This document shows, in pieces, positions 472-16,021 of a stretch of DNA of 23,054 nucleotides. Positions within the stretch are counted from its first letter, which is position 1; every line of letters begins with the position of its first letter. This stretch comes from a virus, in IMG/VR virus record IMGVR_UViG_3300046642_000749, positions 1 to 23,054 of that record; one strand, given 5' to 3'. A program made the position numbers and the translations under genes. The notes beneath the pieces are model-generated. The model was not told where the DNA came from, searched no databases, and saw nothing but the letters and a program-made list of their open reading frames with translations.

Positions 472-951
472 ATGACCGATCTGCCCGCCGCGCCCGATAT
501 CGTTCTGCCAACGCCGGACAAACGGGTGACTTGGACCCAGCGGCGGCTCGACCGTGCCGTGGCAATGTGGAAAGCGGGCCAAAGCGGATTAGAGATCGCG
601 GTTGAGCTCGGCATCACACGCTGTGCGGTGATCGGCAAGTTAATTCGCGTCGGCCTGCGCCGCGGGTCGGGTGAAGGAGCGATCAAGGCATACAGCGGCA
701 AGCCCGCAACGCTGCGGCGCGCCCCAAAGCAGGAAAACCGCGCGCCGTGGGTGCCGTCGCCGCAACCAAAGCCAAAACCCGAAACCGTCGGCATGCCGAT
801 CGCGCTGATCGATCTTCAATCGCATCATTGCCGCTGGCCGGTCGATGGTCGGGGTGCCGCAACGCTGTTCTGCGGCGGCAATGCTCACGACGGGCATCCG
901 TACTGCATCGGGCATTGCCGCAGGGCGTATCAGCGATGGGGTGCGGCGTGA
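472..951 (+). CDS. gcrA: GcrA-family cell cycle regulator homologue
   Basis: A 159-aa protein of about the usual GcrA length. The N-terminal DNA-binding part (about residues 20-62) begins [10 protein letters not shown] and carries an HTH with [12 protein letters not shown] and a recognition helix around [11 protein letters not shown]. The C-terminal motif (about 115-155) has CRWP, then FCG, then PYC..HC, the conserved part that in Caulobacter GcrA contacts sigma-70. In the host, GcrA activates promoters carrying methylated GANTC sites with sigma-70. A phage copy could redirect host transcription or cell-cycle timing; that is inference. The start is well supported by AAAGGAG upstream. Its stop overlaps the GTG of the adenine methyltransferase gene, so the two are probably translated together. 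Divergent phage copies of GcrA are common in alphaproteobacterial prophages. Confidence 0.88.
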
Positions 952-1916
952 AAGGACTCGCCAAATACAACGCCGCCAAGCGTGCCCTGGCCGAAAGTCA
1001 TCGCGTCGACGAGGTCAAAGATATTCGCGACAAAGCCGTTGCGATGCAGGTCTACGCCACGCAGGCAAAGGACTCCGAACTTATCGATCACGCCACCGAC
1101 ATCAGGATGCGCGCCGAGATCAGAGCGGGCGAGCTGCTGGCGGAAATGGCGAAGCGGAAAGAACGCAAGACCCAGAGCGGCGATAAAAGAGCGAAATCGC
1201 AGCCTGCTATTTCGCTTTTTGATCTCGGCCTGACTGCGACGCAATCCTCGCGCTGGCAAGCACTCGCCGCGCTGCCGAGGCAAGATCAGGAGCAAAAGAT
1301 CGCGCGGGCCAAGCGCAAAGCGAAGGCCGCGCTCGACGGGACGGCAAAGCGCGAGCGCGCAGAAATGCGGCTTGAAGACGAGGCGCGAGTCCGCGCGCTT
1401 ATTCCCCGCGTTGGCCGATTCCGTGCCCTCGTTATTGATCCGCCGTGGGATTACGAATGGCTGTCAATCGCTGGCCGGGCGTCGCCTGGCTACGCAACGA
1501 TGACACACGAGGAATTAATAGCGCTCGATGTGGCGCAATGGGCGGAAGATAATTGCCACCTTTACCTGTGGACTACCAACAATTTTATGACGCGCGCCGT
1601 CGATCTGATGGCGCGATGGGGATTCCAGCACAAGACGGTGTTGACCTGGGTAAAGCCGCGCTGGGGACTCGGCTCCTATTTCCGCAATTCGACAGAGCAT
1701 ATTCTGTTTGGAATCCGTGGCGAATTGCGCACGCGATCCGACAGCATTGCCACGCACTTTGAGGCCCCTGTTTCCAAGCATAGCGCCAAGCCTCCGATCT
1801 TCTATGAGATCGTGCGCAAGGCATCCTACGAGCCTTTCGGCGAAGTTTTCCAACGCGAAGAAAGGGCCGATTTCACCAATGTTTTTGTGGCCGCCACGCA
1901 AGAGGCGGCAGAATGA
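948..1916 (+). CDS. MT-A70 family DNA N6-adenine methyltransferase
   Basis: With the GTG at 948 the protein is 322 aa; an in-frame ATG at 936 is an alternative that would add four residues. An N-terminal helical part (1-75, rich in K, R and E) is followed by a linker and the MT-A70 catalytic domain from about residue 155. The catalytic DPPW motif is at residues 164-167 ([10 protein letters not shown]), and further family segments are [10 protein letters not shown] and the stretch around [27 protein letters not shown] (visible in pieces). The family transfers a methyl group from SAM to adenine N6. In phages it can protect DNA from restriction or alter regulation. GTGA overlap with the GcrA gene and ATGA overlap with the next gene indicate one operon. 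The target sequence cannot be read from the protein. Confidence 0.88.
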
Positions 1917-6664: not shown

Positions 6665-6840
6665 CGCCAGCGGGTGCAATGATTGACAGCTTGTCGATCG
6701 CCGAGCGCGCCTGGCTGATTGGCATCACGGTGATGGCCGTCAGTTCGCTGCTGCTGGGCCTTTGTCTGCTCAACGCCGTCATGGAAGTCGATAAAGCGCC
6801 GTCGCGGCCGCGCGATAGGAGGCGAGATGCCCTTACCTGA
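6661..6840 (+). CDS. Small single-span membrane protein (59 aa)
   Basis: The start is taken as ATG 6661, coupled to the previous stop, rather than an upstream in-frame alternative codon. The 59-aa product has one strong transmembrane helix at about residues 17-40 (AWLIGITVMAVSS, then LLLGLCLLNAV) and a basic C-terminal tail (RPRDRRRDALT) that would be cytoplasmic by the positive-inside rule. It overlaps the capsid gene by 14 bases. With its upstream partner it forms a two-gene membrane cassette in the head operon. Function unknown. Confidence 0.65.
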   Translation: MTPAGAMIDSLSIAERAWLIGITVMAVSSLLLGLCLLNAVMEVDKAPSRPRDRRRDALT

Positions 6841-9058
6841 TCCGCACAAAAACGAGACTCAGCAAGACTTTGTCTCGCGCTGCATCGCCGGCGCTGTTGG
6901 CGATGCGACGGTGCCCAATACCGAGAACGGCCGCGCCCAGGCGGCGGCAATGTGCTTCGACGTTTGGCGCAACCGCGACAAACCGGCGAAGGCCGGCCCG
7001 ACCGCGGCCGACTGTCCGATGATGGGCGATTGCCCGATGCAGGCGAAGGCCGGCGCGATAGCCGATTGCCCGCGCGGCGATTGTCCCATGAAACCGATGG
7101 CCGGCTCGCTGGCCGGCTATGCTTACGCGACGATCGAAATCAAATCGTTCGATAACGATCAGCGGGTGATCGAGGGCATCGCGTCAACGCCCACAGCTGA
7201 TCGTCTCGGCGATGTCATGAATCCGCTCGGTGCCAAGTTCGCTTTGCCGATGCCGTTGCTATGGCAACACGACAGCAAATCGCCGATCGGCCAGGTGGTG
7301 TGGGCCGAGGCACGCGAGACCGGCATTCCGTTTCGCGCCAAGATCGCCAACGTGGCGGAACCAGGCCGATTGAAGGATCGTCTCGACGAGGCCTGGCAAT
7401 CGCTCAAGGCCGGTCTAGTTCGTTTTGCGTCCATTGGCTTCACTGCCGCATCTGACAAAGTGAAGCTGCTCAAGGGCGGCGGCCTGCAATACGACGAATG
7501 GTCCTGGCTCGAATTGAGCGCCGTGACCATCCCAGCCAATGCCGAAGCCACCATCACCGCTATCCGTTCCATCGATCAGGTGCTGCGCGCCGCGTCCGGC
7601 GATTGCAAGCTGATCGAAACCGTGCCGGCTCCGTCGAGCCAGAAGAAGGAAAAACCCGCCAGCGTCCTGGCATCCCGATCAATCAAGCTTGGAGCCACGA
7701 CAATGGCTACGAAGACAAACTCAGAAAGAATTAAGGATCTCGAGGCAAAACGCGGGGCGGAAGCGGCTGCGCGCGATGCCATTCAAACCAAGGTTGCCGA
7801 TGAGGATCGTACCAAAGATGAGGCCGAGCAGACCGCGTTCGACGAGCATTCGGCAACCATCAAGGCGATCGACCGCGAATTAGCCGATTGTCGAACGATC
7901 GAGAAAGAAATGATCATGCGGGCGCAGCCAGTCATCGGCGACGGCAGCATGGAAATCCACAGCCCGGGCAGCATCCAGGTCAGGGCGCCAGTGCTTGAGC
8001 ACGGCCTCGGCTTGATCAAGGCACTGGCTTGCGAAGGGCATGCTATTAAATACCATCGCGATGTTTACTCAGTGGCGCGGCAATTCTGCGGACAATGGCC
8101 GCAAGTGGAAAACCATTTGCGGACCAAGGCCGCAGTGGCGACCGGCACGACGACGGGGACGACTTGGGCCAGTCCCCTGGTGTATCCGGCAAATTTAGTC
8201 GCTGACTTCTTCGAGTTTTTGGTGCCGCAAACTTTCATGGGCCGCATTCCCGGTCTGACGCGGGTGCCGTTCAACTCGCGGGTGCCGCGCGAGAACTCGG
8301 TGATCACCGCGCAGTGGGTTGGGGAAGGCCGGTCCAAGCCGGTCGCTGCCGGCAGCTTCGACTTTGTGTCGCTCAGCTTCGCCAAGACCGCCTGCATCAT
8401 GGGCGTCACCGATGAGCTGGTGCGGTTCTCGTCGCCGTCGATCGAAACGTTGGTGCGTAACAATTTGGCCAAGGGCATCGCCAAGTTTCTTGATGTCCAG
8501 TTCATCGATCCGTCGGTGGCTGCTGTCGTTGGCCAGAATCCGGCATCGATAACGAACACTTGCGATCACGATGCGGCGTCGGGCACGGATATCACGGCGG
8601 TCATTCACGACATTCGTGAGATTCTGTTCCACTTCCAGGAGTACAATATTCCGACCGATGGCCTCGTGCTGATTATGCAGCCGGTGCTGGCGACTTCGAT
8701 CGGTACTATGATGACGACGCTCGGCGTTCGCCAATTCCCCGAGGTTAACGGCCAGGGCGGCTCGATTCTCGGTGTGCAGGTCATAACCTCGAACAACTCG
8801 CCATCGGGGCAGATCACGGCGATCCATCCGCCGTCGGTTCTTTTGGCCGATGACGGTGGCATCCAGATCGATCTGTCGAATGAGGCCTCGGTTGAGATGC
8901 AAGACAACCCGACCTCGACCGATTGGCATCTCGTCTCCGCATTCCAGCAAAACTTGCTGTTCGTGCGGGCCGAGCAATACATCACCTGGGCGCGCGGCCG
9001 TGATAAGGGCGTTTATTATATCAATGCCGCCAACTATGCCGGAGCCGTCACCGGATGA
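6827..9058 (+). CDS. HK97-type prohead protease fused to major capsid protein
   Basis: One 743-aa reading frame holding two normally separate proteins. Residues 1-95 are an N-terminal extension with six cysteines, including four DCP motifs (62-88). Residues 98-250 are the S78 prohead protease: catalytic His148 in LLWQHD, Ser202 in RFASIGF and Glu229 in WLELSAVTIPANA. Residues 293-370 are a charged, coiled-coil-like delta/scaffold region, and 385-743 are the HK97 capsid fold (with WASPLVYPANL, GRIPGLTRVPF, TSTDWHLVSAFQQNL). ATG at 7703 (residue 293), with GGAG eight bases upstream, could also give a free capsid protein. AGGAGG precedes the ATG at 6827. Fused forms are known in prophages; the internal start suggests both products may be made. 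Confidence 0.92.
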   Translation: MPLPDPHKNETQQDFVSRCIAGAVGDATVPNTENGRAQAAAMCFDVWRNRDKPAKAGPTAADCPMMGDCPMQAKAGAIADCPRGDCPMKPMAGSLAGYAYATIEIKSFDNDQRVIEGIASTPTADRLGDVMNPLGAKFALPMPLLWQHDSKSPIGQVVWAEARETGIPFRAKIANVAEPGRLKDRLDEAWQSLKAGLVRFASIGFTAASDKVKLLKGGGLQYDEWSWLELSAVTIPANAEATITAIRSIDQVLRAASGDCKLIETVPAPSSQKKEKPASVLASRSIKLGATTMATKTNSERIKDLEAKRGAEAAARDAIQTKVADEDRTKDEAEQTAFDEHSATIKAIDRELADCRTIEKEMIMRAQPVIGDGSMEIHSPGSIQVRAPVLEHGLGLIKALACEGHAIKYHRDVYSVARQFCGQWPQVENHLRTKAAVATGTTTGTTWASPLVYPANLVADFFEFLVPQTFMGRIPGLTRVPFNSRVPRENSVITAQWVGEGRSKPVAAGSFDFVSLSFAKTACIMGVTDELVRFSSPSIETLVRNNLAKGIAKFLDVQFIDPSVAAVVGQNPASITNTCDHDAASGTDITAVIHDIREILFHFQEYNIPTDGLVLIMQPVLATSIGTMMTTLGVRQFPEVNGQGGSILGVQVITSNNSPSGQITAIHPPSVLLADDGGIQIDLSNEASVEMQDNPTSTDWHLVSAFQQNLLFVRAEQYITWARGRDKGVYYINAANYAGAVTG
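7691..7705 (+). promoter_or_regulatory. Internal ribosome-binding site and start for a separate capsid protein
   Basis: GGAG at 7691-7694 is followed eight bases later by an in-frame ATG (7703) exactly at the junction between the protease and capsid domains. Initiation here would give a 451-aa capsid protein without the protease. Translation from this site is inferred. Confidence 0.45.
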
Positions 9059-9261: not shown

Positions 9262-10613
9262 AGCTGTTCGGGTTCGAGGTCACGGTGCGCAAGCAGATGC
9301 CGGCGCTGCCATCGAATTCGCTCTATGACCGCGGCTGGTTTCCGGTTGTTCGCGAGCCGTTCGCCGGCGCCTGGCAACAGAACCGTCCGCTGGTCATCGG
9401 CAATCCCTTACAGAACGCGACGCTCTATCGCTGCGTGACCATGCCGGCCGCTGATATCGCCAAGATGCGATTGAAGCTGATGACGGATATCGGCGACATC
9501 TCCAAGGAAACCACCGCGGCGGCATTCTCGCCGATCCTTAACAAGCCGAATCGTTACCAGACCCGCATCCAGTTCTACGAGAGTTGGATTATTTCCAAGC
9601 TGCGCACCGGCAATGCCTACGTTCTCAAGGAGCGCGATGCACGCAATGTCGTGGCCGCGATATATGTGCTCGATCCGTATCGCGTGCGCGTCCTGGTCGC
9701 GCCGGATGGTTCGGTGTTCTATGAATTGAATGCGGATGCGCTGGCTGGCGTGCCGGCGGACAAGGTGATGGTGCCCGACAGCGAGATCATGCACGATCGT
9801 ATCAATTGTCTGTTTCATCCGCTGTTCGGCATGTCGCCGCTTTATTCGACTTCGCAAGCCGCCTCGGCAGGATTGTCGATGCAAGAATTCTCGGCGCGCT
9901 TTTTCACCAATGCGGCGCGGCCGTCCGGCGTGTTGACGGCGCCGGGCGATATTCCGCAGGCGACGGCGGACCGATTGAAAAATCATTGGACCGAGGAATA
10001 TTCGCAAGGTAATTCCGGCCGCGTCGCCGTGCTTGGCTCGGGCCTCAAATTCGAGGCGATGCAGCAGAATGCGGTTGATAGCCAATTGATCGAGCAACTC
10101 AAGCATAGCGACGAAAGCATCTGCGCCGCATTCGGCATTCCGGCATTCATGGTCGGCGTCAAGGACCCGCCGAACTACAACAATGCCGAATTATTGGATC
10201 TGCAATATTACAAACAATGCTTGCAGAGCCTAATCGAGCACATCGAACTCATTCTCACCGAAGGTCTTGCACTCGATGGCGCCGGCTATCATGCCGAATT
10301 TGACCTCACCGGTCTGTTCCGCATGGACAGCCAGACGCAGATTGCGACGCTAAGCACAGCGGTCGATAAGGGCATCATGACCCATAACGAGGCGCGCGAG
10401 ATTTTGGACCTGCCGCCGGAGCCCGGCGGTGACGTGCTGATGGCGCAGCAGCAGATGTTCTCGCTCGAGGCATTGGCCAATCGCGGCAACGCGCCGGCCT
10501 TGCCCGCAGCGCCGGCGCCCGGTGGCCCTCCCGCCGCGGCGCCGAGCGAGCGGCCGTTCAATCCGCAGGCAATGCTCGAGGCTTTGCGCAAGGAGTTTGG
10601 CTGTGCAGCTTGA
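9258..10613 (+). CDS. HK97-family portal protein
   Basis: A 451-aa protein, of usual size for this family. Recognisable segments are ATLYRCVTMPAADIAKM (about 55-71), the middle-domain piece LRTGNAYVLKERD (about 115-127), the HPLFGMSPL motif (about 190-200), ARFFTNAARPSGVL (about 215-228), and the C-terminal VAVLGSGLKFEAM, then FGIPAFMVG and YNNAELLDLQYY. It forms the dodecameric DNA channel at the capsid vertex that receives the terminase and later the connector. In most HK97-like phages the portal gene precedes protease and capsid; here it follows them. The C-terminus is Pro/Ala-rich. Confidence 0.94.
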   Translation: MKLFGFEVTVRKQMPALPSNSLYDRGWFPVVREPFAGAWQQNRPLVIGNPLQNATLYRCVTMPAADIAKMRLKLMTDIGDISKETTAAAFSPILNKPNRYQTRIQFYESWIISKLRTGNAYVLKERDARNVVAAIYVLDPYRVRVLVAPDGSVFYELNADALAGVPADKVMVPDSEIMHDRINCLFHPLFGMSPLYSTSQAASAGLSMQEFSARFFTNAARPSGVLTAPGDIPQATADRLKNHWTEEYSQGNSGRVAVLGSGLKFEAMQQNAVDSQLIEQLKHSDESICAAFGIPAFMVGVKDPPNYNNAELLDLQYYKQCLQSLIEHIELILTEGLALDGAGYHAEFDLTGLFRMDSQTQIATLSTAVDKGIMTHNEAREILDLPPEPGGDVLMAQQQMFSLEALANRGNAPALPAAPAPGGPPAAAPSERPFNPQAMLEALRKEFGCAA

Positions 10614-11241
10614 GGAAAGCATGGCGAAAGAACTCGCCAGCATTGTCAATGAACGATTGGCCAAATGCTTTGATGAAGTTGCGGGTCTCAAAAGCCGCAT
10701 AGGCGTGTTGGAGCTGCGCCAGCCGGAGCGCGGCGAAAAAGGCGAGCGCGGTCTAAACGGCGAGAAAGGCGACAAGGGCGATCGCGGCGACAAGGGAGAT
10801 CCAGGCATTATCGGCCGCGATGGCCTGTCCGGAGTGCCGGGCCGTGACGGCAAGGACGGCCGCGATGGCGTGGACGGCAAGGATGGCGCCTCCGGCAAGG
10901 ATGGCGCCGATGGCCTCGGCTTTGACGATGTGACGTTTGAATTGGTCGATAATGGCACCAGCGTCATCGAGCGTTATGCCAAGGGCAACGTGGTCAAGAC
11001 TTTGAAGCGGCGGATTCGCAGCCGCCATCACGGACCATGGAAACATGACGGCGAGTATTTCTTCGAGGACAGCGTGACCTCCGGCGGCTCCAGCTGGATG
11101 GCGATGGTCGATGCGCCGAAGTGCAAGCCCGGCGACGGCAAGGATTGGCAATTGTGGGTTCGCAAGGGCCGCGATGGTAGGGATGGCGAGCGCGGGCCAC
11201 CTGGTCCGGTTGGTCCGCCCGGTAAAGACGCGAGTTACTGA
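10603..11241 (+). CDS. Collagen-like phage protein with two Gly-X-Y stretches
   Basis: GTG 10603 has AAGGAG seven bases upstream (212 aa); ATG 10621 with GAGG is an alternative giving 206 aa. Residues 1-40 are a helical, coiled-coil-like segment, a usual trimerisation element. Residues 44-106 are an uninterrupted run of Gly-X-Y triplets (21 glycines at every third position), mostly charged (GEKGDK, GRDGKD). A small beta domain follows (107-188, with GGSSWMAM and KDWQLWVRKG, resembling carbohydrate-binding-like modules in such proteins), then a second short collagen stretch (189-209, GPPGPVGPPG). It is probably a trimeric surface fibre or head decoration. Such proteins are frequent near the portal in alphaproteobacterial phages, but their exact role is not settled. 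Confidence 0.85.
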   Translation: MQLEESMAKELASIVNERLAKCFDEVAGLKSRIGVLELRQPERGEKGERGLNGEKGDKGDRGDKGDPGIIGRDGLSGVPGRDGKDGRDGVDGKDGASGKDGADGLGFDDVTFELVDNGTSVIERYAKGNVVKTLKRRIRSRHHGPWKHDGEYFFEDSVTSGGSSWMAMVDAPKCKPGDGKDWQLWVRKGRDGRDGERGPPGPVGPPGKDASY

Positions 11242-11242
11242 A

Positions 11243-11896
11243 ATGCATTCCATCGTTGTGGTGCAGCAAACCGCAAGCGTTTACGACTTGACCACGGTCG
11301 CTGCGGCCAATGCGTTTCTCGGATTGACTTCGTCCGTTGAGAATGATGCGAACATAGCGGCGCATATCACTTCGGCATCGCAGATTATCGCCAATCAATG
11401 CGACCGGGTATTCGCCATGCAGGACGTGGTCGAGACCTTCTTCATGCGGTCGGGCGAATACGGCGAGGTGCTCAATCTCGATCGCCCGCCAGTCATTGCG
11501 ATTTCTTCGATCGTCCAGAATGGCCAGTCATTGACGCCGGATTTTTACGACGCCGATCTGGACAAGGGTTTCATTTGGCGGCGTTGCGACTTTCTGCCGT
11601 GGACGTCCGCGCCCTATCCTTACGGTTACGGCAACAATCGCATCGCCGTGACTTACACCGGCGGTTATGACCTGCCTACGGGCGCGCCGGCGGACTTGGC
11701 GCTTGCTTGCCTGCTGTTGATGAAAGAGCAGCGCTTCATGCAGGCGCGCGGCGATCCGAGTATCCGCAGCCTTTCGCATGGTGACGTGACGATCTTCTAT
11801 CAACAAACCGCAGCCGGCATCGGCGCCGGCCAGGGCGCATTGCCGCCCGCGGTCGATCGTCTCCTGGCACCATACAAGTTCCCGGCCGCGGCGTGA
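11243..11896 (+). CDS. Head-tail connector (adaptor) protein, gp6-like
   Basis: Taking ATG 11243 right after the collagen stop gives 217 aa. It begins with a helical bundle: YDLTTVAAANAFLGL, then ANIAAHITSASQIIANQCDRVF, as in HK97 gp6 / SPP1 gp15 adaptors, where residues from the N-terminal helices line the ring. The middle has beta segments (VLNLDRPPVIAISSIVQNG, NRIAVTYTGGYDLP), and the C-terminal part contains LALACLLLMKEQRF. These are hallmarks of the phage connector family that seals the portal after packaging. The usual neighbours (head-tail joining, tail terminator) are not next to it but about 9 kb downstream. Confidence 0.8.
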   Translation: MHSIVVVQQTASVYDLTTVAAANAFLGLTSSVENDANIAAHITSASQIIANQCDRVFAMQDVVETFFMRSGEYGEVLNLDRPPVIAISSIVQNGQSLTPDFYDADLDKGFIWRRCDFLPWTSAPYPYGYGNNRIAVTYTGGYDLPTGAPADLALACLLLMKEQRFMQARGDPSIRSLSHGDVTIFYQQTAAGIGAGQGALPPAVDRLLAPYKFPAAA

Positions 11897-12516
11897 GTGC
11901 GCAATATTGGGATATCCCGCCGGAATGGACCGGCGAAACGGCATTCATTGTTGCCGGCGGTCCTTCGGTTGGATTGATCGACTTGGAAGCGCTGCGTGGT
12001 CAGCGCATCATTGCGATCAATACATCCTATCAGGCGGTGCCGTTCGCCGATTTCATAATCTTTGCCGATGCGCGCTGGTATGAAAATTACCGCTCGCAAT
12101 TGGTCGACTGGAAGGGGCGCATAATCTGCTGCTCGCAATCGTCGCGTTCGCCGCAGCTGTTGCGTGTGGCGCGGCGCAACCGTCCGACCGATGATGCGCG
12201 CGATACCTTGTTCGTCCAGTTCACCACCGCGACGGCGGCGATCGAATTGGCGGTCAAGCTCGGGGCCGTCAAAATTGTGCTGTTAGGTCTCGACGGCAAA
12301 AGCGGGCCAGATGGCAAGACCCATCACCATCGGTCGCAGCCGTGGCGGCCACTGCCCGGCTGGGAGGCCAAGCATAGGACAGATCTGATCCAGTTGGTCG
12401 AGCCGTTGAAGGCTCGCGGTATCGAAGTCTGTCATGGCACGCCCGGCTCGGCCTATGAGTTCTGGCCGACCGTTGCCTTGACCGAGGTGCTCGGCCGTGT
12501 CCTCGCCGCCGCCTAG
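11893..12516 (+). CDS. DUF115/GT42-like protein with AGGPS motif (first copy)
   Basis: A 207-aa protein starting at a GTG that overlaps the connector stop (GTGA). The N-terminal Rossmann-like part has FIVAGGPSVG (about 18-27), INTSY (about 43-47) and FADARW (about 57-62). The second half has TTATAAIELAVKLGAVKIVLLGLDG (about 112-135), histidines in KTHHH, and YEFWP near the end. This order (AGGPS loop, D-A-R, Ala-rich helix, LGLDG, His) is shared by DUF115/MptE-like proteins and resembles GT42 sialyltransferases. A nucleotide-sugar transferase is therefore plausible, not proven. A second protein of the same type is encoded at 14678. It opens the five-enzyme cassette. Confidence 0.65.
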   Translation: MSAQYWDIPPEWTGETAFIVAGGPSVGLIDLEALRGQRIIAINTSYQAVPFADFIIFADARWYENYRSQLVDWKGRIICCSQSSRSPQLLRVARRNRPTDDARDTLFVQFTTATAAIELAVKLGAVKIVLLGLDGKSGPDGKTHHHRSQPWRPLPGWEAKHRTDLIQLVEPLKARGIEVCHGTPGSAYEFWPTVALTEVLGRVLAAA

Positions 12517-13450
12517 GCTTCTCATCCGCGGCCAATGGGGTCTCGGCGATAACATCTACGCTCGCGCATTCGTCAAGGAGTTGGTCAAGACGAACGAGCT
12601 TTACCTGGAAACGCCGTGGCCGGAAATCTACGCCGATCTGAACGTGAAATTTGTGCTCGGCCGGAAATCGCTGCGCACGCAGAACAAGAACATCGCCCGC
12701 CAGCCCGGGGGGCGATGGTGCAACGTGCCGGCGCTGTATCCATCGCAAATCAAGACCGTTAATTATGGCGGCCGTGCATTCCCGCACCAGAACATCCCCG
12801 GTGCGTTGCAATTGGCCTTTGGCGTGCGGGCGGATTGGTCAAAATGGGATCTGCCGGATTGGGGTCTGCCCTGTCCGGTGGCTGCGGACCGGCCGATTGC
12901 AGTTATTCGCCCGGTAACCGTGCGTCATGAATGGTTCAACAGCGCGCGCAATCCGAAGCCGGAATACATTAGCGCCATCGCCGAACAGTTTATGACCACG
13001 CATCGGGTCGTCTCAGTGGCTGATTGTGATGCAAGTGAACCCTTAGTCGGTCCCGAGCCGCCTTGTCACGATAAGTTTCACGGCGGCGAACTGACGGTGC
13101 GGGAATTGCTGACGCTTTTACATCATGCCGACATTGTGGTCGGCGGCGTCGGCTGGATCGTGCCTGCAGCCATTGCGCTCAAGATCAAGGCCTTTGTGAT
13201 CCTCGGCGGCCATGGCGCGCACAACGGTCCGACTGTTGTCACCGACCCGGTCATGGATCTGACGCGAATTGGTTTCGCCAAACCGGAAAAGTTCTGCCAA
13301 TGCACGAACATGCGCCACAACTGCGAGAAGACGATTCCGGATCTGATGGAACAATTTTGCCGTTTTCTCGAAAGCCAACGTTGCACGATATTGTTGCCGC
13401 AAGTAGGCTGCAGTGGTTTCCAGAACTCGGCGTCGGCTATTTCCCCGTAA
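12497..13450 (+). CDS. GT-B fold glycosyltransferase-like protein (GT9-like)
   Basis: A 317-aa protein starting at GTG 12497, overlapping the previous gene by 20 bases. It starts LLIRGQWGLGDNIYARAFVKEL (in pieces at residues 8-29), like the G-x-L/W-GD loop of ADP-heptose:LPS transferase-like (GT9) enzymes. The C-terminal half has ELTVRELLTLLHHADIVVGG, a GVGW loop, PAAIALKIKAFVILGGHG and a Cys-rich end (CQCTNMRHNC), matching the donor-binding half of that fold. The HxxADIVVGG helix-strand pair is typical. Donor and acceptor cannot be told. The reading frame runs 70 bases into the following methyltransferase, an unusually long overlap for this window. Confidence 0.7.
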   Translation: MSSPPPRLLIRGQWGLGDNIYARAFVKELVKTNELYLETPWPEIYADLNVKFVLGRKSLRTQNKNIARQPGGRWCNVPALYPSQIKTVNYGGRAFPHQNIPGALQLAFGVRADWSKWDLPDWGLPCPVAADRPIAVIRPVTVRHEWFNSARNPKPEYISAIAEQFMTTHRVVSVADCDASEPLVGPEPPCHDKFHGGELTVRELLTLLHHADIVVGGVGWIVPAAIALKIKAFVILGGHGAHNGPTVVTDPVMDLTRIGFAKPEKFCQCTNMRHNCEKTIPDLMEQFCRFLESQRCTILLPQVGCSGFQNSASAISP

Positions 13451-14004
13451 TAGGATCGCCTTACGATCAGGCTTATTTCGACCGGTTTGCCAGGCAGGCG
13501 CTGGAGCCGATTGGGCAAAAATTACTGCGGGCACGCGTCAGCTTTGTTGACAAACATTATTCCGGTGCATTGCTCGACGTTGGTATCGGTTCTGGCGCTT
13601 TCATTGAGAAACGAAACGATTTGCGGCCAGGTTCAACATTTGGTTTCGACATAAATCCAGCGGGCGTAGCGTGGCTGAAAAAGCGGAATCTCTGGTACAA
13701 TCCTTATGACGGCGATGTTCCGGCGTTATCGATGTGGGACGTGCTAGAGCACATGCATGATTTTCGGTTGTTGCTGGGCGGGGTGAGGCGTCTGCTGTTT
13801 CTATCGTTGCCGATATTCCGCGACGTCGAGCATGTGTTGCGTTCGAAGCATTTCAGGAAAGACGAACATTTTTGGTATTTTACGAGGTCTGGATTGATTA
13901 CGGTCCTGCACAATTTCGGCTTTGAATTGATCGCCGAGAGCGACATGGAAATCCGCGCTGGCCGGGAAGATATCGGCACGTTTGCATTTCGCCGGAGAGT
14001 TTAA
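13381..14004 (+). CDS. Class I SAM-dependent methyltransferase (first)
   Basis: The frame is open from ATG 13300 (234 aa), but recognisable sequence begins near SRLQWFPELGVGYFPV, so I place the start at TTG 13381 (207 aa). Motif I is LLDVGIGSGAFIE (about residues 63-75), followed by FGFDINP (motif II region) and MWDVLEHMHD (the DVLEH signature of Methyltransf_23-type enzymes). The C-terminal part WYFTRSGLITVLHNFGFEL is typical of small-molecule or sugar O-/C-methyltransferases. The substrate is unknown; neighbouring glycosyltransferase-like genes point to a sugar or glycan. The start choice is uncertain because both options overlap the upstream gene by 70-151 bases. Confidence 0.75.
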   Translation: MHDIVAASRLQWFPELGVGYFPVIGSPYDQAYFDRFARQALEPIGQKLLRARVSFVDKHYSGALLDVGIGSGAFIEKRNDLRPGSTFGFDINPAGVAWLKKRNLWYNPYDGDVPALSMWDVLEHMHDFRLLLGGVRRLLFLSLPIFRDVEHVLRSKHFRKDEHFWYFTRSGLITVLHNFGFELIAESDMEIRAGREDIGTFAFRRRV

Positions 14005-14094
14005 ATGAGCATCGCTTACGGAGAAGCTGCCACATTTCTTATAGTTGGGCTCGTCATCATACTGATTGGGTCCACGATTATTGGGGCAAGGTAG
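14005..14094 (+). CDS. Putative 29-aa membrane microprotein
   Basis: ATG 14005 follows the methyltransferase stop directly and has GGAGAG about six bases upstream. The 29-aa product is almost entirely one hydrophobic helix (residues 10-26, TFLIVGLVIILIGSTI) with a basic C-terminal end (GAR). It sits between the two methyltransferase genes of the cassette with no other gene in the gap. The ribosome-binding site and the clean transmembrane segment make it more than a random frame, but it may be a coupling or spacer element. No homologue is known to me. Confidence 0.45.
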   Translation: MSIAYGEAATFLIVGLVIILIGSTIIGAR

Positions 14095-14102
14095 TTGAAT
14101 CC

Positions 14103-14681
14103 ATGTTGCACATCGGCGACAGCACGGCGCCGGAAAGACTCAAGTATGAGGAAATCTGGAGCTATCCAGAATATAAAAATTACTCGCCTGGGCTGGAAAA
14201 CGTCGAGCGCTTCATCGAAGTGCTCGAGCCGATTGCGATGGCGACGCTTATCGACATTGGTTGCGGCTCCGGTTGCGCCGGCATGAAATTCGCCAATCTC
14301 GGTTTTCGGGTCTCATGGCTCGACCTGACCGATGCCGCACTCGATCCGCAGATTGATAGGAGGCGCTTTGTTCAAGCCGCGCTGTGGGACGATTGGGGCG
14401 TCAATAGAAGGATGGGCTGGGATTACGGTTTTTGCTGCGATGTCATGGAGCACTTGCCGCCAGAATACACCATGCTTGCGCTGGACCGCATATTCAATGC
14501 TTGTCGGACGACTTGGCTGCAGATCGCTTTGCATGACGACGGGTACGGCAAGTTCATCGGCAAGCCGTTGCATCTGACCGTGCAGAATTTCGCCTGGTGG
14601 CGCGATCGAATCGCGACATTGGGCAATCTGATCGAGGCGCGCGATCTGTGCGGGACCGGGCTCTATGTGGTGCAACAATGA
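14103..14681 (+). CDS. Class I SAM-dependent methyltransferase (second)
   Basis: A 192-aa protein. SAM-binding motif I is LIDIGCGSGCAGM (about residues 49-61), followed by a D-containing strand end (VSWLDLTDAAL) and, at about 107-118, YGFCCDVMEHLPPEY, the post-I motif shared with methyltransferase families acting on small molecules and sugars. The C-terminal part includes FAWWRDRIATLGN and ends LYVVQQ. It shares fold but little obvious sequence with the methyltransferase at 13381, so the two are probably not recent duplicates. Its stop overlaps the next gene's ATG (ATGA). Substrate unknown; a glycan is inferred from the cassette. Confidence 0.75.
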   Translation: MLHIGDSTAPERLKYEEIWSYPEYKNYSPGLENVERFIEVLEPIAMATLIDIGCGSGCAGMKFANLGFRVSWLDLTDAALDPQIDRRRFVQAALWDDWGVNRRMGWDYGFCCDVMEHLPPEYTMLALDRIFNACRTTWLQIALHDDGYGKFIGKPLHLTVQNFAWWRDRIATLGNLIEARDLCGTGLYVVQQ

Positions 14682-15565
14682 GCAGTCGCGGCCGGCATGA
14701 CGCGGCGCAGACGCATGTCATTCCGTTTGATCCGAAGAAGGTTCGCGAGATTGAATTCTCGCCGGACTGTCGGGTCAACGTCACCGACGAGCAATTGCTG
14801 GTGCAGGTGGCGGAGAATATCAAACGCGGCCTGCCGCAAGCGATGCCTTACGATCCCAATCCTGATGTCGCTATTTTGGTTGCCGGCGGGCCATCGCTCA
14901 AGAGCACCGAGAAGGAGCTCGTTGAAACGATCTGGCGGACCGGCGGTAAGGTGTTCACCGTCAACGGCGCCTATCAATGGTGCATCGATCACAATATTCG
15001 CCCGGTCGCCGCGGTAGTCATGGACGCGCGCGAGTTTAATGCGCGGTTTATCGAAACGCCGGTGCATGATTGTCACTATCTGTTGGCCTCGCAGTGTCAT
15101 CCAAAGACATTCGAGATGTGCCGCGATCGCATCGTTACCATCTGGCACGCGTTGAGCGCCGGCGACGATGAGATCAAGTTGCTCGATAAATATTATTTCA
15201 AGCGGCACAATCCGGTAACCATTGGCGTCACGGTTTCGATGCGCGCCATATCGCTGATGCGGATGCTCGGCTTTCAGCGGCTTGAAATATTCGGCCTGGA
15301 TTCATGCTGGCTCGATGGCGAGCATCACGCCTATGAGCAGATAGAGAACAACAACGAGAAAACCATGAGTGTGTGGTGCCGCCCCAAGGGGCGCGACGAT
15401 CTCGCGCAACGTTTTGTTTGCTCGGTGTGGCAGGCCAAGCAGGCGGAAGACTTCCTTCAGCTCGTAAAGGAACGTGGCGAGTTGTTTCAATTGAACGTGC
15501 ACGGTCTCGGACTTATCGCAACCATGATCCGCACTGGCGCGGAATTGGAAATAGAGGAGGCCTAA
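14678..15565 (+). CDS. DUF115/GT42-like protein with AGGPS motif (second copy)
   Basis: With ATG 14678, overlapping the previous stop, the protein is 295 aa. The order of motifs matches the protein at 11893: AILVAGGPSLKS (about 65-76), VNGAYQW (about 94-100), VVMDAREF (about 112-119), then TIGVTVSMRAISLMRMLGF and LEIFGLDSCW, then an acidic/His segment (GEHHAYEQ). The N-terminal 60 residues, including NVTDEQLLVQVAENIKRGLPQ, are an extra part not seen in the first copy. DUF115/MptE-like or GT42-like sugar-nucleotide chemistry is the best guess. It closes the cassette; the next gene begins directly after its stop behind a strong GAGGAGG. Confidence 0.65.
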   Translation: MSSRGRHDAAQTHVIPFDPKKVREIEFSPDCRVNVTDEQLLVQVAENIKRGLPQAMPYDPNPDVAILVAGGPSLKSTEKELVETIWRTGGKVFTVNGAYQWCIDHNIRPVAAVVMDAREFNARFIETPVHDCHYLLASQCHPKTFEMCRDRIVTIWHALSAGDDEIKLLDKYYFKRHNPVTIGVTVSMRAISLMRMLGFQRLEIFGLDSCWLDGEHHAYEQIENNNEKTMSVWCRPKGRDDLAQRFVCSVWQAKQAEDFLQLVKERGELFQLNVHGLGLIATMIRTGAELEIEEA

Positions 15566-16021
15566 ATGGCAGTCGGCGCCTGGACGTTTTACAACAAATT
15601 CAAGCGTAACCTTGGGCAAGCGTTCCCGATCAACCTTGGTACGGGCAACTTCCGTATTGCCCTGTACACGTCGGCGTCGAACGCCGCGACCGCGACACTC
15701 TCGATCATTTCGAGCGTGACCAGCGAGGTGACGGAGGCGAACGGCTATTCGTCATCCGGCAAGCCGTTGGCTTCGAAGACGTGGACCGCTGGCGCATCGG
15801 GCGGACAATTGCGCTTCAACGCCGCGGCGACAGTGTGGACTGGCACCGGCGGCACGATCAGCAATATCAAGTTTGCGGTGATCTGGGCCTCCGGTGCATC
15901 GGCCATCGCCCGCAAGTTGATTTGCTACAGCCAGTTGTCAACGTCACAGTTCAACTTGACGATCAACAACACGTTGACGATTACGCCGTCAGCGACGGGC
16001 ATCTTCAATCTCGCGGGTTGA
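15566..16021 (+). CDS. Phage structural-type beta protein (151 aa)
   Basis: ATG follows GAGGAGG by five bases, one of the strongest ribosome-binding sites in the window, which suggests high expression. The sequence begins MAVGAWTFYNKFKRNLG and alternates short strands rich in T, S, A and G (FRIALYTSASNA, TAGASGGQLRFNAA, LTINNTLTITPSATG), ending in FNLAG. Proteins beginning with this pattern occur in many tailed phages near structural genes without an established role. A capsid decoration or tail-associated role is inferred. It has no cysteine pair, membrane segment or enzyme motif. Confidence 0.7.
   Translation: MAVGAWTFYNKFKRNLGQAFPINLGTGNFRIALYTSASNAATATLSIISSVTSEVTEANGYSSSGKPLASKTWTAGASGGQLRFNAAATVWTGTGGTISNIKFAVIWASGASAIARKLICYSQLSTSQFNLTINNTLTITPSATGIFNLAG

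Follow-up and report, generated by a model that had tools for sequence, protein, structure and literature searches.

Why would a phage place a run of enzyme-like genes among the genes for its own particle? This question is raised by a 23,054-base virus record (IMGVR_UViG_3300046642_000749; hereafter the window), whose plus-strand gene order proceeds from the large terminase, a protease-capsid fusion, the portal, a collagen-like protein and a head-tail adaptor to the reported run (11893-15565), and then to structural and tail genes. An initial annotation of the sequence described this run as one cassette, composed of five enzyme-like genes and a 29-amino-acid membrane microprotein, that would build a methylated sugar on virion proteins or alter host glycans. 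Our analysis reveals that the run is composed of two separable modules, A (11893-14004; genes g1, g2 and g3) and B (14103-16021; genes g5, g6 and g7), and that the natural unit reaches 16021 because g7 belongs with g5-g6. Judging from sequence comparisons and structural models, we consider it reasonably probable that the two modules constitute a phage-encoded, late-expressed, cytosolic pathway for protein modification that acts on a virion protein.

Two linked gene modules

All five enzyme-like genes are present as first described, and comparison with the relatives L003 and L004 reveals an excess of substitutions at third codon positions in every one of them (for codon positions one, two and three, the counts are 6/5/38 for g1 and 18/10/93 for g6). 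Because the changes concentrate at third positions, we conclude that the five genes are selected as proteins. Most genes had been said to overlap the next; three of the five junctions in the run do so, but one pair abuts and another is separated by an 8-nucleotide gap.

To delineate module A, hidden Markov models for g1, g2 and g3 were run over loci found with g2, many of which are near-identical (redundancy reduction at 85% similarity leaves approximately 40 sequences). All three genes are present in 93 of 101 sampled loci. They lie in the order g1-g2-g3 on one strand in 92 of these 101, and the remainder comprise a single locus with the order 2-3-1, five without g1 and three without g3, the last explained by contig edges in two cases and by a truncated frame in the third. 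The g2 scan yielded at least 583 viral relatives. When genome contigs were scanned with the single g2 protein nothing was recovered, and an alignment-based scan returned 12 loci. As a control, we anchored a second set on the portal gene, using 42 loci that each extend at least 5 kb downstream. Here g1-g2-g3-g5-g6 is found in 17 loci, g1-g2-g3 in five and g1 alone in six, and 14 carry none of these genes. Every locus of this set that has g2 also has g1 and g3 (22 loci with g2, 20 without), and g6 accompanies g5 in every case. This distribution indicates that the cassette is accessory, and that g2 with g3, and likewise g5 with g6, are all-or-none among the portal-anchored loci.

Module A is shared by very different phages, and its sets in enterobacterial, jumbo and cyanobacterial phages are partial or displaced. 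Pseudomonas phages D3 (orf7, orf12 and orf13) and PAJU2 (gp10-12) carry it in the virion operon, annotated as sialyltransferase, hypothetical protein and methyltransferase, and all three genes are found in the Klebsiella jumbo phage Eowyn. The g2-g3 pair is present in phage Psp6, in a Synechococcus phage of the T4-like cyanobacterial type and in Enterobacter phage Mulvp2, there with an upstream g1-like frame. Furthermore, module A loci reside in genomes of Mesorhizobium, Bradyrhizobium, Bordetella, Mixta, Buttiauxella, Citrobacter, Izhakiella, Methylophaga and Pseudomonas. The position of the module varies: in Mixta and Buttiauxella it precedes the terminase, one locus (L028) has it between the capsid and portal genes, and D3 holds it amid its connector and tail genes. 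In two Bordetella prophages (L099, 8230-9945, and L100, 8362-9963), g1 and g2 form a single open frame, which hints that the two proteins work together.

Some relatives of g1 lack g2 and are found beside other enzymes. These neighbors are a Methyltransf_24 protein and a TOD1/MUCI70-type glycosyltransferase (L203), a GT8-like protein with a GT9 protein and a methyltransferase (L207), Methyltransf_23 (L213) or Methyltransf_24 (L193); the L213 cassette is followed by a Gp80-type fiber protein (PF23140, 168 bits). If these loci build glycans that share a first step, variable glycosyltransferases and methyltransferases beside g1 are to be expected, which lends support to a glycan role.

Module B exhibits an equally tight arrangement. 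The g5-g6 pair lies directly upstream of g7 in 29 of 31 loci anchored on g7, including lineages in which g7 identity is 51-65%, and every g6 relative is accompanied by g5. Relative to L105, L108, L111 and L112, DNA identity is 81-84% from 14103 and drops at about 16020, where g7 ends, with flanks that are approximately 70% identical or cannot be aligned. As judged from these sequence boundaries, module B is exchanged as one block. Thus, each trio, g1-g2-g3 and g5-g6-g7, is found together elsewhere, and the co-occurrence whose absence would have spoken against the initial annotation is observed, for two modules rather than for a single five-gene unit. Neither g6 nor g7 matches annotated phages, and a megablast search of the DNA against sequenced phages revealed no similarity.

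Predicted activities of the encoded proteins

All features described below are on the plus strand. The g1 protein (11893-12516; PHROG 4603, 3.9e-24) belongs to the MptE/DUF115 family, although its score against the MptE-like model PF01973 (27.6 bits) falls under the gathering cut-off of 34.6, and a PDB sequence-profile search gave nothing significant. When its AlphaFold model (predicted local distance difference test score, pLDDT, of 89.4) was examined with VIA-align, the nearest structure was the flagellin transferase Maf (5mu5; Z 16.1 over 187 residues, root-mean-square deviation 3.3), and then came the GT42 sialyltransferases CstI (2p2v; Z 13.2) and CstII (Z 12.6), such that the model has a GT42-type fold. 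We therefore assign g1, on the basis of this model, a putative Maf/GT42-like glycosyltransferase fold, which agrees with the DUF115/GT42-like guess of the initial annotation for this AGGPS-motif gene.

The same annotation proposed a GT9-like enzyme of the GT-B class for g2 (12497-13450; PHROG 6804, 2e-88), and the AlphaFold model (pLDDT 89.0, predicted template modeling score 0.88) agrees. Foldseek ranks TibC first (7e-10) and the heptosyltransferase WaaF next (4e-7), and VIA-align gives tied or nearly tied values for the GT9 protein 3tov (Z 18.2), TibC (Z 18.0) and WaaF (Z 17.0). Moreover, the g2 profile aligns with 13 GT9-type proteins (hhalign E 4.1e-7, 265 columns), and the alignment includes both invariant features of g2, a GxGD region and a C-terminal C-x-C-x4-H-x-C cluster. 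The residues of this cluster (C267, C269, H274 and C276) lie in the same region as the iron finger of TibC, whose cysteines have a different spacing (339, 342, 358 and 370; PMC4358343). Residue 1 of the g2 model pairs with TibC residue 90, and so the N-terminal beta-barrel domain, which spans TibC residues 1-97 (PMC4358343), is lacking. Taken together, these comparisons indicate a heptosyltransferase-type GT-B enzyme for g2, and we lean toward TibC over the lipopolysaccharide (LPS) enzymes as its closest counterpart.

Sequence searches place g2 at a distance from these proteins. The curated cut-off of the BAHT/TibC model TIGR04414 (200 bits) was not reached, the sole hit being D3 orf12 (13.8 bits, E 0.02), and one of 41 g2 relatives matches this model at E 0.028. 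A PDB sequence-profile search with g2 gave nothing significant, and no true TibC gene over cut-off was found in 198 genomes from the order of the Citrobacter host. As a separate observation, the g2 homologue of Pseudomonas phage PACT201 (PP931175.1) is split across several frames and is not annotated as a whole, reflecting either decay or sequencing errors.

Both of the methyltransferases first predicted from the sequence find matches. The g3 protein (13300-14004; PHROG 6564, 4e-60) is an S-adenosylmethionine (SAM)-dependent methyltransferase that exceeds the Methyltransf_23 cut-off (PF13489, 40 bits versus 27), and g5 (14103-14681), a second SAM methyltransferase, matches Methyltransf_12 at 1.4e-5, which is below the cut-off. 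A g3 gene accompanies g2 in 99 of 102 loci. If g3 starts at the ATG at 13300, it overlaps g2 by 150 nucleotides. Substitutions in this stretch follow the g2 frame, but the first part of the g3 frame in one relative (L007) holds no later start codon. A long g2/g3 overlap is therefore possible, and the exact g3 start is uncertain.

The second AGGPS protein, g6 (14678-15565), is an MptE/Maf-like protein that matches PF01973 at 57.4 bits, over the gathering cut-off of 34.6, and its family is homologous to that of g1 (hhalign E 6e-9). A weak match to FlagModPseD (8.4e-5) is shared by six of 11 g6 relatives. We moved the start of g6 from 14597 to the ATG at 14678, which is most likely correct because the L004 frame encounters a stop when read from the upstream GTG; the g5/g6 junction then becomes an ATGA overlap.

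Just outside the reported interval lies g7 (15566-16021; PHROG 644, 1e-19), a Ser/Thr-rich protein and candidate acceptor. Its combined serine and threonine content (24.5%) is the highest of the 22 window proteins measured, and its relatives share the invariant stretch E-V-x-E-A-N-G-Y-S-S-S-G-K. A PDB sequence-profile search with g7 gave nothing significant, and kinship with the Gp80 fiber protein seen in L213 is unsupported (hhalign probability 0.3). The g7 gene is also a site of insertion. In L003 its start is broken after codon 8 by a group I intron with an endonuclease-like open reading frame (ORF) (L003:8275-9198; the intron matches Rfam RF00028 with 58.7 bits at L003:8926-9162). An insert in L004, at about 11729-12514, likewise contains an endonuclease-like ORF, related to that of L003, and interruptions of similar size are found in L004, L111 and L112.

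A proposed virion modification pathway and its alternatives

How might these proteins act together? In our proposal, g1 would place the first sugar on Ser/Thr residues of a virion protein, g2 would add a second sugar or might also act directly on protein, and g3 would methylate the resulting glycan. The second Maf-like enzyme, g6, together with the methyltransferase g5, would act on a partner of their own, for which the neighboring g7 is the most plausible candidate. Maf is an enzyme that acts on Ser/Thr of proteins. TibC likewise acts on protein Ser/Thr (PMC4358343), and thus the solved structures nearest to g1 and g2 belong to protein O-glycosyltransferases. The location among virion genes supports a particle protein as the target, and it is from the position of the cassette in the structural operon that we infer late expression. 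For the donors, the most economical guess is a supply of LPS inner-core sugars, with CMP-Kdo (cytidine monophosphate-3-deoxy-D-manno-octulosonic acid) for the Maf-like step and ADP (adenosine diphosphate)-heptose for g2. This guess derives from the lack of nonulosonic acid synthesis in most hosts examined (NeuB in two of seven genomes, versus an HldE domain in seven and KdsB over cut-off in six), and CMP-Kdo can be used by a Maf enzyme (PMC11339370).

A fully specified version of this scheme would be a swappable glyco-methylation system of proteobacterial phages, in which a Maf-/TibC-like relay uses Kdo and heptose and adds a methyl cap, and a g5-g6-g7 writer-acceptor module marks the GYSSSGK stretch of g7. 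We offer this version tentatively and doubt that it will hold in every part.

Several observations weigh against the proposed pathway. A fold class does not give a substrate, and the LPS enzymes WaaF and WaaC share the fold of g2, while none of 41 g2 relatives matches any Pfam glycosyltransferase model, including Glyco_transf_9 (PF01075, E 0.1). The fold of g1 is shared by the pterin pyrophosphokinase HPPK of M. jannaschii (8sd5; VIA-align Z 11.5). Four loci (L008, L014, L028 and L093) lack g1 although they are not cut at a contig edge, implying that g2-g3 can act without it. Two others (L246 and L249) keep the g7 serine motif with no g5-g6 in the stretch covered, and so the motif alone is no proof of modification. 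Proximity to virion genes is equally true of unrelated cargo genes. To our knowledge, synthesis genes for ADP-heptose and Kdo are near-universal in such hosts, and thus the host survey speaks against nonulosonic acids more than it speaks for heptose. The acceptor and sugar assignments are putative, drawn as they are from sequence and models.

Alternatively, late in the infection cycle or in lysogens the cassette could alter a host surface glycan or receptor, such as LPS, capsule or flagellin, leading to superinfection exclusion or seroconversion. The g2 fold is about as close to WaaF as to TibC, g1 and g6 give weak signals for the LPS Kdo transferase WaaZ, and several of the phages that carry the cassette are temperate or reside as prophages. 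However, D3-like phages have these genes within their structural operon, the run is devoid of a flippase or membrane-bound transferase, jumbo and T4-like cyanobacterial phages are carriers as well, and the structures nearest to g1 and g2 act on proteins, making this function unlikely in our estimation. Quite improbable is a small-molecule or nucleotide-derived modification, made by the MptE-like and methyltransferase proteins through pyrophosphokinase chemistry with no sugar transfer. Such chemistry would fit the membership of g1 and g6 in the MptE/DUF115 superfamily. It would also fit the position of the M. jannaschii HPPK, which is a structural neighbor of g1 and tops the weak PDB hits obtained with the g6 profile (E 0.011). 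Nevertheless, Maf and GT42 enzymes outrank HPPK for g1, which is linked to a GT-B enzyme and resides beside other glycosyltransferases in relatives that lack g2.

Could the genes simply be mobile passengers that persist by linkage and do nothing for the virion? Three observations are reminiscent of mobile cargo: module B is exchanged as a block, g2 is absent from 20 of 42 portal-anchored relatives, and in one relative g7 is interrupted by a group I intron with an endonuclease. Against this idea, all five enzyme genes are under strong purifying selection, very different phages keep the g1-g2-g3 order, and g1 and g2 occur as a natural fusion; we rate it no better than the pyrophosphokinase route. 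Least credible of all is glycosylation or methylation of phage DNA. Another gene of the window (747-1916, PHROG 359) does encode a putative DNA methyltransferase, but the cassette sits among structural genes and was found to contain no nucleotide-modification enzyme, its methyltransferases match Methyltransf_23 and Methyltransf_12 rather than DNA methylase families, and its nearest structures are protein or LPS glycosyltransferases.

The proposed virion pathway has an analogue in cluster O mycobacteriophages, where an O-methyltransferase and glycosyltransferases, encoded between the portal and protease genes of Corndog (gp35-gp38) and its relatives, are proposed to modify the capsid (PMC4351075); glycans on the capsid of Che8-type mycobacteriophages are reported in work cited in PMC11256854. 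The window likewise holds predicted glycosyltransferase and methyltransferase genes within its structural operon. By analogy, the cassette may work like that of Corndog with other enzymes. The hosts differ (actinobacteria for Corndog, proteobacteria for the phages described here), as do the location and the enzyme classes, which in Corndog are an O-methyltransferase, glycosyltransferases and a GlcNAc (N-acetylglucosamine)-transferase, with no Maf-/TibC-like pairing described.

Among cellular systems, g2 resembles TibC and Aah of the BAHT family (4rap, 4rb4; PMC4358343) in its GT-B fold, in a possibly metal-type cysteine cluster near the C-terminus and in an aspartate of the N-terminal GxGD region that lies close to where the catalytic Asp110 is found, but differs in lacking the beta-barrel, in having C-x-C-x4-H-x-C in place of four iron-finger cysteines and in scoring far under the TIGR04414 cut-off. 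The Maf/PseD flagellin nonulosonic acid transferases (5mu5; PF01973) share the fold of g1, the sequence relationship of g6 and the AGGPS motif; unlike them, g1 and g6 are short and reside in a phage operon, and most host genomes examined are without NeuB. Phages D3 and PAJU2 carry homologous g1-g2-g3 genes in the virion operon but no module B was seen there, and in D3 the g1 gene is separated from g2-g3 by connector genes. Among the papers available to the search, none combines DUF115, phage, glycosyltransferase and methyltransferase. The view that no named system has this composition is thus half right: no description of the composition was found, but module A is already present in D3, and an analogous cassette is known from Corndog. 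The folds are of the types first proposed, and the genes do occur together elsewhere; the opposite outcome on either point would have counted against the initial annotation.

If the proposed pathway is correct, D3, a classic model phage, decorates its particles with sugars and methyl groups, as do hundreds of environmental phages, by means of protein O-glycosyltransferase types so far known from flagella and autotransporters. This would bear on phage-receptor contact and immune recognition. Genes that have long lacked an assignment would gain a function, and compact writer-acceptor modules would become available. A direct test is possible with D3 in a laboratory strain.

Neighboring genes and the module junction

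The junction between the modules holds a 29-amino-acid hydrophobic ORF (14005-14094), which had been regarded as a membrane microprotein of the cassette. It lies inside an insert of approximately 95 bp that is present only in the near-identical L001 and L002 and absent in L003 and L004. With no conservation to support it, we rejected this ORF as a conserved part and list it as a lineage-specific candidate.

Upstream of the run is a collagen-like protein gene (10522-11241; PF01391, 47.6 bits), which the initial annotation named as a possible target. Of 76 g2-bearing loci for which the 3 kb upstream are available, 52 have a collagen ORF in that stretch, and the other 24 have the cassette with no such ORF there. 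The collagen-like gene is a common neighbor, not a required member. We thus rejected it as an obligatory acceptor, whereas the broader suggestion that a virion protein is modified retains the support of gene location.

The gene directly upstream of g1 encodes the head-tail adaptor (11111-11896; PHROG 442, 1.8e-32), confirming the placement of the run directly after the connector, and it overlaps g1 by 4 nucleotides. Its true start is probably later than the listed 11111, after the collagen-like gene ends. The putative DNA methyltransferase gene noted above, which lies outside the cassette, matches its family at 1.1e-40. Finally, the window carries a single gene for a 743-amino-acid protein (6827-9058) in which the head maturation protease and the major capsid protein are apparently fused, and the same arrangement is found in phage PAJU2.

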